Origin: Candidatus Rokuibacteriota bacterium
GTDB lineage: Bacteria > Methylomirabilota > Methylomirabilia > Rokubacteriales > CSP1-6
Direction of reading: 5' to 3'
Length of the DNA: 64,000 nucleotides
Assembly (NCBI GenBank): GCA_003220495.1
Contig: QHSP01000029.1
Span: 1 to 64,000 of the forward strand
Part shown: piece by piece, positions 1 to 5,005 of the stretch
How the letters are laid out: each line of letters starts with the position of its first letter
How positions within the stretch are numbered: position 1 is the first letter of the stretch
The notes under the pieces: generated by a model
What the model was told of the DNA's origin: nothing
What the model saw: only the letters and a program-made list of their open reading frames with translations
The model's database searches: none
Program-made: the position numbers and the translations under genes

Positions 1-1
1 A

Positions 2-316
2 CAGGGCAAGCCGCAGGTGATCGTCTTCGCGACCCCGAGGTACTGCACCAGCCGCGTGTGCGGCCCCGTCGTGGACGTGGTACGAACGCTGATCCCGACC
101 TATAGCGACCGAGTCGTCTTCGTACACCAGGAGATCTGGGAAGCAGGGTCCCTCCAGAGGTTCTCTCCCACCGTGGAGGAGTGGAATCTCCGCTCTGAGC
201 CGTGGATCTTCGTGGTGGACGGCGGAGGCATCGTCCGGGCCCGATTCGAGGGTTTGACGACGCGGCGCGAACTCGAGGCGGCCCTGAGGCGCGTGCTTGG
301 GCCGGAGCGGCGGTAA
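2..316 (+). CDS. Thioredoxin-like protein, C-terminal part (5' end outside window)
   Basis: The reading frame is open from the first bases of the window, so the N-terminus lies upstream. The visible part has a thioredoxin-fold layout: a hydrophobic strand, a loop with two cysteines spaced by four residues (YCTSRVCGPV), a helix, then an EPWIFVVD strand and a glycine turn followed by a C-terminal helix. This resembles thioredoxin-like domains with a CxxxxC loop rather than classical CxxC. A redox or metal-delivery role is possible but not shown. The first in-frame GTG in the window is probably internal. Confidence 0.6.
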   Translation, partial: QGKPQVIVFATPRYCTSRVCGPVVDVVRTLIPTYSDRVVFVHQEIWEAGSLQRFSPTVEEWNLRSEPWIFVVDGGGIVRARFEGLTTRRELEAALRRVLGPERR

Positions 317-447
317 CGATCGCATACACCTCGCTGTCCGTCAGCGAGTGCGGCCGAGCGAACGGCATCGCCCGCCGGACGTAGTCGAACACGGTCGTCG
401 CATACGGGCCAGTAGCTGCCGCCGGCAAACGGATGAAGCTTGCCGGC
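312..447 (-). pseudogene. Relic of a cytochrome c-type protein
   Basis: On the minus strand, one frame reads HPFAGGSYWP and the next reads YATTVFDYVRRAMPFARPH followed by SLTDSEVYAIV. Joined, these match the conserved C-terminal block of class I cytochromes c of the SoxD/SorB kind (WPYATT, DYVRRAMPF, LTxDEVYA). The join needs a one-base shift at about 404. No heme CxxCH motif is visible upstream and the open part is far shorter than the family. It is therefore a decayed fragment, not a functional gene. The identification rests on motif memory. Confidence 0.5.
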
Positions 448-1980: not shown

Positions 1981-2031
1981 TATAATTGAAGTACAGGAGG
2001 GCCTATGAAGTATCTGGCACTTTGGAATTGA
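1981..2031 (+). promoter_or_regulatory. TATAAT box plus strong SD leading into an aborted 8-codon frame
   Basis: A perfect TATAAT is followed after about 10 bp by AGGAGGG and an ATG that opens an 8-residue frame (MKYLALWN) ending in TGA. A one-base shift would continue as GIDPRHLTWQGK. No good -35 is seen. It may be the promoter and start of a decayed small gene, or a leader for the small gene downstream. Confidence 0.3.
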
Positions 2032-2117
2032 CCCGCGACATCTCACCTGGCAAGGCAAGACCGCGCCCTTCCAAGAAGCGCGAGCCACAATCAGCGGCCG
2101 ACAACAAGATCCTCCCA

Positions 2118-2321
2118 ATGGAGCTTCAAGTTGGCGACCGCCTCACCAACGAGGCCGGCGAGTCGGAGGTCATCGCCCCGCCATACAGCACAGCGGGCGG
2201 AAGAATCGTCCACGCGCGAGTCCAGAGAATCAACGAGCCCGCCAGTTGGGAGATATGGAATTGGGATGCTGCCAAGCGCATCAGCGTGGGGCGGACGAGC
2301 GCGGAGGAGGGTAAGGGATGA
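2118..2321 (+). CDS. Small GDRL-type conserved protein, copy 1
   Basis: A 67-residue protein beginning MELQVGDRLTNEAGESEV. It is recognisably paralogous to the minus-strand gene at 4823-5005 (MQLQIGDRLSDETGEWEV), with shared TAGG and xHxRV segments. Finding the same protein twice supports coding and this ATG, although an in-frame TTG at 1986 would add 44 unmatched residues. It is probably a small beta-rich cytoplasmic protein; the family and function are not recognised. The next small frame starts within its stop (ATGA). Confidence 0.55.
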   Translation: MELQVGDRLTNEAGESEVIAPPYSTAGGRIVHARVQRINEPASWEIWNWDAAKRISVGRTSAEEGKG

Positions 2322-2545
2322 CGCGACTCGCGGAGAGTACGCCGCCGCTCGGCGGGCGGTCCAGAGTGCCGCGTGGGAGGCGCTCACCCGCGCGAACGAC
2401 TGACTACGCTAGCAATCCACTCGCGTGGGTTGCGCCGCTCATCGTTCCACAGCTCGAAGCAGAGGACGTGGAATTGGATAGAGCGCGCGCCGTAGCCCGA
2501 CGCTTTCGAGGCGCTGTCATAAGGGAGTATTCGCCCCTGCTGTAA
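2318..2545 (+). CDS. Hypothetical small protein (weak)
   Basis: A 75-residue frame starting in a 4-nt ATGA overlap with the preceding small gene and ending 5 bp before a strong terminator, which favours it being the last gene of a short transcript. The N-terminal half is Arg/Pro-rich and looks non-coding; the C-terminal half (LEAEDVELDRARAVARRF) could be helical. No family is recognised. The last codons lie inside the 110-bp sequence that is duplicated next to tRNA-Asp. Confidence 0.25.
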   Translation: MTRLAESTPPLGGRSRVPRGRRSPARTTDYASNPLAWVAPLIVPQLEAEDVELDRARAVARRFRGAVIREYSPLL

Positions 2546-2550
2546 TGACG

Positions 2551-2586
2551 AAGGGCCACAGCATCAAACTGTGGCCCTTTATTTTT
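2551..2586 (+). terminator. Rho-independent terminator
   Basis: Arms AAGGGCCACAG and CTGTGGCCCTT enclose a 7-nt loop, followed by TATTTTT. It terminates plus-strand transcription of the small genes just upstream. A structurally equivalent hairpin with different stem bases lies at the same distance from the real tRNA-Asp. Confidence 0.85.
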
Positions 2587-2596
2587 GCGTTGTTAA

Positions 2597-2642
2597 ATGG
2601 CGGGCTCGACGGGACTTGAACCCGCGACCTCTGGATTGACAG
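2597..2642. repeat. Partial tRNA-Asp copy, att-like direct repeat (left)
   Basis: Forty-six bases identical, except for one C/T difference, to the 3' half of tRNA-Asp at 4644-4689. The match runs from the anticodon loop through the T arm to the encoded CCA and a flanking AT. The match stops abruptly inside the anticodon loop. This is the geometry left by tyrosine-recombinase integration into a tRNA 3' end. No integrase remains nearby. Confidence 0.8.
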
Positions 2643-2833
2643 AACGCTACGCGCCTTCGACGTCAGTCGCGTTTCTCGCTACTTCGCACACTTACAAATC
2701 GGGGACGGCCTATCTCGGTGACAGTGTCAGGCCCTTGTTCTATGATGTTTGGCCAAGATTCTGACATGGATTTTCGAGCATGGATCGTGGCCAAGGGCAC
2801 TGTCAGGGCGTCGTCAGGCACAGTCCAGCAATC

Positions 2834-3808
2834 CTAGTTTCTGGGAGGCTGAAAGCCCATCAACTCGCCATCGCCAAAGAAGCGCATCACCTTCCCATGC
2901 TCTACAACGTCGTCACCGAATATCTGTCCCATTGTGCGTCTCGACGCTCCCATGAATTGAGCGCGCACCTTCACAAAGAAGTCATCCTTGCAGTAGTAGC
3001 TACTTCGTCGCTGTCTCTGTAGTACGTCCACACCTAACGGATCGATGACAAACAATCGCAACCCGACACGATCAATCGCTTCGTTTATCGCGTCATTTAT
3101 GTGTTTATCGCCGAAGCTGTAGCCGATAACCATGGTTCGGGTATTCGGCTGTGACAGATACTCTCTGAATCGCTCGTAGTTCCATTTCAGAATTGGATGC
3201 TGCTCAATGGCAGAAGGCTTATCGCCTCCCATGATCAGCATCGGACGTCCACTACGCTCATCGATCCAAGTGCTCGCTCCATGCAGCTTAAAATATGGCT
3301 GACGGTCCTTCTCAAGCACAAACTTCGCTGAATCCAGGGGAACCCATGTCATTTTGTGCGGCTGCTCGCCTTCAGCTGGAATCGGCTGCATTCCAGGGAT
3401 CTGCCATCCCGCCCACTGTCGATACATGGAGAATTCATCTCTTGCGAAACCGCTGTTGAAGTAATGCTGTTCCATCAGGACATCCTGATTAAGAGTGAAA
3501 ATAGCGTCAAACATCTTTAGATAGTTCCGTACACCGCACTCAACGCCCCGGCGGCTAGAATCAAAGTGTACCGTCGAAAAAGCTCGATTTCATATCTGCA
3601 AACATCTGACGTATGGCGTCCTCCAACTTCGTGAGTCGTTGCTCCGAGCGCCTTCGAATCCACCACTGCGTTTGTGCGTCCACAACAGCGTCCGTATATC
3701 ATCATCGACTTGAGGGCAGCCAATGAGGTATTCGAACGCCTCGTCGGCTAACCAACCGCCCCAATTCCTGCCGAAGCCTGCGCCGGTGAGAAGAATGAAT
3801 TGCGGCAT
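2834..3808 (-). pseudogene. SIR2-like domain protein, frameshifted
   Basis: The N-terminal frame starts MPQFILLTGAGFGRNWGG, the NAD-binding glycine motif of SIR2-like domains, and runs to GGFEGA. A second frame carries EQRLTKLEDAIRQMFADM. A third has MFDAIFTLNQDVLMEQ, KLHGASTW and MVIGYSFGDKHINDAI, the TxNxD, LHG and GYSFGD motifs of the family. At least two indels (near 3640 and 3560) separate the three parts. Such SIR2 proteins are often antiviral NADases. This copy looks inactivated unless the indels are assembly errors. It lies in the AT-richer island between tRNA-Asp copies, divergent from a membrane protein. Confidence 0.75.
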
Positions 3809-3853
3809 GGCAACAATAGACTACACTCCGTTTTGACGGAGGCAACCTACGCC

Positions 3854-4480
3854 ATGTGGGCAACACTGTGGGGGATGCTGACAGTCCAGGACATAAACGC
3901 ATGGGCAACTGTGATTCTTGTAGGGATTACTGCCTACTACGCCTATCAGACTCGGAGACTCGTAAAGGTTGAAGCTGACCGATCCGAGTTCGAAGCCAAA
4001 CGATCTGAGCTAGAGTCGCGGCCTTATCTTGAAGTCTTATTTCAACGTTGGGCTTTAGGCGAGTTTGGTCCTCAGTTTGAGGCAATCAATGTCGGCACAG
4101 GTCCAGCCGTGCGCGTGCGCTTCGACAATCCGAGTCATCTACTGTGGCTGTCAGGTCAAGCCCACATTCAAGGATTCACTACGATTGCCACCGGACTCCC
4201 TTCAGCCCGATTCGCATTTCGAACGAAGCCAATGACTCCTGATGGCGAGCTTCCAACGACTGACTGGTCAACGGAGTTTAGGATTCGCTACAACGATGCG
4301 GCAGGGCTTCACGAATTTGCCGATAAATGGCGTCTGGGCGTAGACCAGGGCACGTCTTATCTCGTGCGGGTGAACGCCACAGTCTTGAAGACGCAGCCTG
4401 CTGAGTCCGAAGACTATGTCGCACAGCAAGGGCCGCACGGCATCAGTTTTCAAACGGTACCGGATCGTCAATCTAGCTGA
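3854..4480 (+). CDS. Membrane-anchored protein of unknown function (island gene)
   Basis: About 208 residues from the ATG chosen here; an in-frame TTG at 3800 would overlap the divergent SIR2 gene start. A single N-terminal membrane segment (WATVILVGITAYYAYQT) is followed by a charged helix rich in Glu/Arg (VEADRSEFEAKRSELES) and a beta-rich soluble domain, probably cytoplasmic. No family is recognised. Codon use is AT-richer than the flanks, which points to transfer. It is divergent from the broken SIR2 gene with about 45 bp between starts and is followed by a terminator, so it could be cargo of the integrated element. Confidence 0.6.
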   Translation: MWATLWGMLTVQDINAWATVILVGITAYYAYQTRRLVKVEADRSEFEAKRSELESRPYLEVLFQRWALGEFGPQFEAINVGTGPAVRVRFDNPSHLLWLSGQAHIQGFTTIATGLPSARFAFRTKPMTPDGELPTTDWSTEFRIRYNDAAGLHEFADKWRLGVDQGTSYLVRVNATVLKTQPAESEDYVAQQGPHGISFQTVPDRQSS

Positions 4481-4600
4481 TATGCAGCGTGCTGTTGCAC
4501 GGCTACAGAATGGGAATGGATCGGATCATCCACAGGGACGGCGAGCTTTGCCAAGTGGCAAAGTATCTGGCCAAGATTAGCCCTTGCTGTAATGACAAAT

Positions 4601-4631
4601 GCCCCAGTGCTCGTGACTGGGGCTTTTGTTT
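4601..4631 (+). terminator. Rho-independent terminator
   Basis: Stem GCCCCAGT / ACTGGGGC with a 7-nt loop, followed by TTTTGTTT. It lies about 120 bp after the island membrane-protein gene. It aligns without gaps with the terminator at 2551-2586 as part of a 110-bp duplication, but the stem bases differ with pairing kept. Confidence 0.8.
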
Positions 4632-4643
4632 ATGCGGTATCAC

Positions 4644-4689
4644 ATGGCGGGCTCGACGGGATTTGAACCCGCGACCTCTGGATTGACAG
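4644..4689. repeat. tRNA-Asp 3' half, att-like direct repeat (right)
   Basis: The partner of the left repeat. This copy is inside the intact tRNA-Asp gene. The two copies lie 2047 bp apart and bracket the AT-richer island. Ungapped similarity extends back a further 64 bp through a terminator (2533-2642 against 4580-4689). Confidence 0.8.
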
Positions 4690-4722
4690 TCCAGTGTGCT
4701 AACCAGGCTGCACCACGAGCCC
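4645..4722 (-). tRNA. tRNA-Asp (GTC)
   Basis: The minus strand folds as a complete cloverleaf: acceptor GGGCTCG/CGAGCCC, D stem GTGC/GCAC, anticodon stem CTGGA/TCCAG with loop CTGTCAA (anticodon GTC), T stem GCGGG/CCCGT with TTCAAAT loop, discriminator G and encoded CCA. Its 3' half is repeated at 2597-2642, marking it as an integration site. Confidence 0.95.
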
Positions 4723-4822: not shown

Positions 4823-5005
4823 TCACCCGCGCGTCCCCTCGATGCGCTCGTGGGCGCCCCACGTGCGTTCCTCGACGAGGGCCGGCTGATCCACCCGTCG
4901 CACGCGCACGTGCGCGACCTTGCCGCCCGCCGTTGTGCGCGGCCGGTTGACCACTTCCCACTCGCCGGTCTCGTCGGAGAGTCGGTCGCCGATCTGGAGC
5001 TGCAT
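4823..5005 (-). CDS. Small GDRL-type conserved protein, copy 2
   Basis: Sixty residues starting MQLQIGDRLSDETGEWEV and continuing with a TAGGKVAHVRVRRVDQP segment. It is paralogous to the protein at 2118-2321, which confirms both frames and starts. The two copies point toward each other from either side of the tRNA-Asp island. It is compact and probably cytoplasmic. No family name or function is known to me. Confidence 0.6.
   Translation of the reverse strand: MQLQIGDRLSDETGEWEVVNRPRTTAGGKVAHVRVRRVDQPALVEERTWGAHERIEGTRG

Follow-up and report, generated by a model that had tools for sequence, protein, structure and literature searches.

We analysed a window of 64,000 nucleotides from contig QHSP01000029.1 of Candidatus Rokuibacteriota bacterium, in which ARAGORN calls a single full tRNA-Asp (GTC) at positions 4645-4722 of the minus strand. 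Its 3' half, from the anticodon loop to the 3' end (4644-4689, minus strand), is present a second time at 2597-2642, also on the minus strand. The two copies are identical at 45 of 46 positions, share their orientation and are spaced 2047 bp apart, just as an earlier note on this DNA had it; equally correct was its remark on a sharp stop at the anticodon loop, the similarity ending after ...GATTGACAG inside that loop of tRNA-Asp. Searching this genome with a 44-nt pattern of the tRNA-Asp 3' half returned these two places only, and the same pattern reversed (read backwards), used as a control, had zero occurrences in the searched genome. The arrangement is that of an integrated island: a complete tRNA-Asp and a displaced fragment of it in the same orientation bound foreign DNA, and the limit of the repeat falls in one of the known crossover sublocations, namely the anticodon loop, the T loop or the acceptor junction (PMC4383910). 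We designate the 3' half within the complete gene as the putative proximal att site and the displaced half, with its one mismatch, as the putative distal one; the complete tRNA-Asp would be the integration target, regenerated by the element.

The interior between the two sites (2643-4644, no strand assigned) has a GC fraction of 0.524, compared with 0.643 in 1-2596, 0.694 in 4723-64000 and a window mean of 0.687. No 2-kb stretch of the window lies below it, and those past base 5000 all have at least 0.633. The interior, described earlier as AT-richer, is in fact the AT-richest 2 kb of the window, and the composition is not uniform across the boundary.

Two cargo genes lie in this interior. On the minus strand, the C-terminal part of a SIR2-like gene (2834-3514) matches the SIR2_2 family (PF13289, E = 1.7e-7, 31.8 bits with a cut-off of 24.5) and the PADLOC model Aga_SIR2 (E = 1.4e-10). 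What appears to be the N-terminal part of the same gene (MPQFILLTGAGFGRNWGG..., 3590-3808, minus strand) shares one frame with it, from which it is separated by a TGA at 3590-3592, so that the reading frame joining the halves is not intact. A second frame between the halves reads as plausible coding sequence, which suggests that two compensating frameshifts disrupted the gene; the gene may instead be a shorter one starting at 3514. A distant homologue spans the joined region, with no close one. In 93 other genomes of the phylum no full-length relative was found, only one distant match of 52 residues in another family, and wider searches again gave distant relatives only. Like the SIR2 anti-phage proteins (PADLOC SIR2 and Aga_SIR2; NCBIfam NF042942), the cargo has a SIR2_2 domain and partial-length model matches; unlike them, it is disrupted, lacks a recognisable partner gene and scores 34.7 bits where the NCBIfam cut-off is 500.

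On the plus strand lies an orphan ORF (3800-4480, likely start ATG 3854) with one apparent N-terminal membrane segment, read from the sequence rather than computed. Pfam gave nothing above cut-off for it, PHROG, NCBIfam and PADLOC gave no match, and searches of viral contigs, plasmids and 94 further genomes of the phylum turned up no relatives. The broken SIR2-like gene and the orphan membrane protein of the earlier note are both borne out, and no sister genome carries either gene without the tRNA fragment: neither was found, bar the one short SIR2 match in another family. Restriction of the cargo to one genome, together with its low GC, is as expected for acquired DNA.

Just left of tRNA-Asp, adjoining its 3' end, a tyrosine integrase gene survives as a C-terminal remnant (RTASVFKRYRIVNLADMQRAVARL..., 4434-4580, plus strand). 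The plus-strand codons from 4434 to the TAG at 4578-4580 read RTASVFKRYRIVNLADMQRAVARLQ..., and 4434-4577 aligns with tyrosine integrases at their C-terminal end, the RY of the nucleophile motif being among the aligned residues. We built a profile from 11 integrases that lie near tRNA-Asp in relatives and whose discovery had not involved the remnant as query; across all six frames of the window it hit this tail at E = 7e-8, and the next-best match had E = 0.55. A wider integrase profile gives the remnant E = 2e-9; since the remnant had served to find some of that profile's members, 7e-8 is the fair figure. The 54-aa remnant alone is recognised by neither Pfam nor NCBIfam, and its identification rests on the locally built profile. 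The interval contains this tail and no intact integrase gene, and a catalytic-domain profile found no integrase domain in the first 12 kb of the window; the locus is consequently filed as a decayed remnant rather than an active island. The earlier interpretation, a tyrosine-recombinase element that had lost its integrase, is supported in its essence and needs correcting in one respect, as the loss is incomplete. The tail overlaps the last ~20 codons of the membrane ORF in a different frame, which places a joint near 4425-4434 that probably arose by deletion.

No exact empty site was found: the left flank of the window is joined to tRNA-Asp in none of eight sister genomes of the genus, where the left flanks at tRNA-Asp are different or missing. 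These flanks were compared by BLAST, and the comparison was extended for two genomes, G002 and G004, in which a shared backbone follows past islands of about 11 and 14 kb. One candidate pair of empty and filled sites (G064 and G023) was rejected, its joint having no tRNA fragment. In the window itself the left flank is a mosaic, positions 1-425 and the epimerase segment at 747-1827 lying on different contigs in sister genomes. We note in passing a thioredoxin-like locus at 1-425 and an epimerase gene at 899-1852. The latter is an extra copy; the other is on contig C81 (G000), whose surroundings match relatives, and is without about 1.25 kb beside it. Small related ORFs stand on both sides of the tRNA, at 1986-2321 (plus strand, MELQVGDRLTNEAGE...) and 4823-5005 (minus strand, MQLQIGDRLSDETGE...); no Pfam model matched either, and the genus contains many copies of DNA like the former.

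The last 34 bases of contig C19 (G000, L114; 3203 bases) are the first 34 of the window, and C19 and window positions 1-425 are continuous in relatives; by these two observations, C19 probably belongs directly upstream of the window. The same overlap at a contig end, in a genome that is a 159-contig draft, would also suit an artefact of metagenome assembly in which two contigs were joined through the tRNA repeat. Such a join is extremely improbable, considering that the repeat is short at 46 bp, that the shift in GC holds coherently across all 2 kb and that the same arrangement is seen in independent assemblies of relatives.

The repeat extends beyond the tRNA piece. The earlier note described the 46-bp piece, which is real; the duplicated stretch amounts to ~116 bp, since the 70 bp to the left of each tRNA copy (2529-2598 and 4576-4645) are also homologous to each other. 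Their alignment scores 26.5, with a maximum of 15.5 in 2000 shuffles, and exceeds that of every other att flank in the family. In each flank the motif CYTGCTGTAATGAC precedes a hairpin whose loop has 7 nt. Beside the complete tRNA, the integrase-proximal end of the element (4576-4643, plus strand) consists of the CTTGCTGTAATGAC motif and then the hairpin at 4594-4630; beside the displaced fragment, the homologous end (2529-2596, plus strand) has a hairpin of its own at 2550-2580. The sequences of the two stems are different, their stabilities equal (-21.5 and -21.8 kcal/mol). Among 99 genomes the motif occurs at these two places only, with no other holder.

Could the tRNA pieces have come from local duplication or genome rearrangement instead of site-specific integration, the low GC then marking unrelated foreign DNA? 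A duplicated stretch running 70 bp past the tRNA and a left flank rearranged with respect to sister genomes might be read so. The repeat nevertheless ends sharply at the anticodon loop, as in 13 other fragments of the family, an integrase tail stands at the right end, and the 70-bp flanks are far more divergent than the 46-bp core, their hairpin stems differing; we therefore give local duplication next to no weight. After a single insertion, the DNA adjoining the displaced fragment is expected to be original chromosome. Here 2529-2596, by alignment and motif, resembles the element's own integrase-side end, and the most economical reading is tandem accretion: an older element of the same type was probably already in place and the present one inserted next to it, rather than into an empty site. 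A C-terminal profile found no second integrase remnant left of 2597, and the far end of the older element was not found; this contig starts at window base 1.

tRNA-Asp is an integration hotspot across the family. In a pattern search of 99 relatives, 41 genomes contained full tRNA-Asp genes or 3' halves of them. Detailed reading of loci gave 14 displaced 3'-half fragments, spread over nine genomes and each with its limit at the anticodon loop; two genomes (G059 and G071) have two fragments each, arrayed with tRNA-Asp, and another (G026) has one fragment 4 kb from its tRNA-Asp. Intact integrases end beside the tRNA-Asp 3' end in G025 (L057, 373 aa) and G071 (L054, 443 aa), one is frameshifted in G015 (L079), and truncated ones sit beside att copies at L053, L056 and L088. 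The left flanks of tRNA-Asp vary between genomes and the right flank is largely conserved within the genus, as expected for an insertion hotspot.

Elements also use the 5' side of tRNA-Asp in relatives: in G003, G006, G014 and G070 (L070, L071, L085, L089) integrases face the gene from that side, and G035 has a second copy of the 5' half, instead of the 3' half, ~4 kb away (L072 6093-6127). Two further observations concern individual genomes. G007 (L062 751-5222) and G001 (L065 320-4790) share a 4.5-kb stretch close to a tRNA-Asp fragment at 99.3% identity, reflecting either a recent transfer or contamination, the latter being listed as 9% for G007. G071 (L053 and L054) has two full tRNA-Asp genes, one with the two-fragment array and the other with the intact integrase; this is either a strain mixture or a true second copy.

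Many of the fragment-bounded segments in relatives have no adjoining integrase domain. Taken with the size of the present element, just 2 kb, this would fit a satellite-like cassette that never had an integrase of its own and was moved in trans by those of other tRNA-Asp elements. We judge that very unlikely: the integrase tail occupies the position and orientation of an element's own integrase, which points to loss and not to original absence.

In all likelihood, 2597-4689 is the remnant of a tyrosine-recombinase integrative element at tRNA-Asp, lying beside an older element of the same type, its integrase nearly all deleted and its SIR2-like cargo disrupted, so that it now has the status of a CIME. 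We propose the following course of events. An integrative element would have entered tRNA-Asp by means of a tyrosine recombinase, with crossover in the anticodon loop. By bringing a new 3' half it would have kept tRNA-Asp whole, the old 3' half being displaced to the far end of the element at 2597-2642. The landing site would have been beside the end of the older element, the last 70 bp of which persist, on this reading, at 2529-2596. A later deletion may then have taken nearly the whole integrase gene, leaving ~48 tail codons and both att sites, and the SIR2-like gene would have been disrupted. The present element is presumably immobile, or at best passively movable.

Islands of this general kind are well documented. 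The Islander database holds 3,919 tRNA- and tmRNA-integrated islands, of which 3,760 carry a 3' fragment and 159 a 5' one; 2,083 are anticodon-centred, and 125 tandems are counted (PMC4383910). The layout of those islands, a regenerated tRNA at one end, a displaced 3' fragment at the other and a crossover in the anticodon loop, is repeated here, but Islander demands an intact integrase and would filter out an element of which only the tail is left (PMC4383910). A CIME is an element without integration and transfer genes that has kept both att sites, and the stacking of elements at one site is termed accretion (PMC5704250). Our element agrees with both descriptions: its integration genes are gone and both att sites are kept, and it adjoins the end of another element at the same tRNA. 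In comparing it with CIMEs, its att sites are putative ones known from sequence, and no conjugation or transfer gene was seen.

Dehalococcoides genomes offer a parallel in their tandem islands at ssrA, a single RNA gene (PMC3146451). There, too, small islands stand in rows with repeats of the 3' end of the target RNA, and some are without integration genes; the difference is that Dehalococcoides uses a serine recombinase, a tmRNA and a T-loop crossover, whereas here a tyrosine recombinase and the anticodon loop of tRNA-Asp are involved (PMC3146451).

A bolder idea can be drawn from the same material, one that we consider very unlikely. tRNA-Asp would serve this lineage as a long-lived dock for cassettes, where small segments of one or two genes, bounded by tRNA-Asp 3' halves, outlast the loss of their own integrases; as CIMEs they would continue to come, go and spread through intact integrases at the same tRNA in other strains. 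On this view, the two proteins encoded in the present element, the orphan membrane one and the SIR2-like one, would be what is left of a two-gene defence cassette not described before.

The element is ordinary in kind, an integrated-island fossil at a site that many relatives use. Beyond the first reading of this DNA come the integrase tail, the longer repeat with its older neighbour and the family-wide hotspot. Altogether, the locus provides a well-bounded example of the decay of an integrated element in a lineage for which draft genomes are the main source, and shows the tRNA-Asp of this lineage to be a recurrent insertion site. The tRNA-Asp 3' half and the integrase tail together constitute a marker for foreign genes in these genomes, possible phage defences included.
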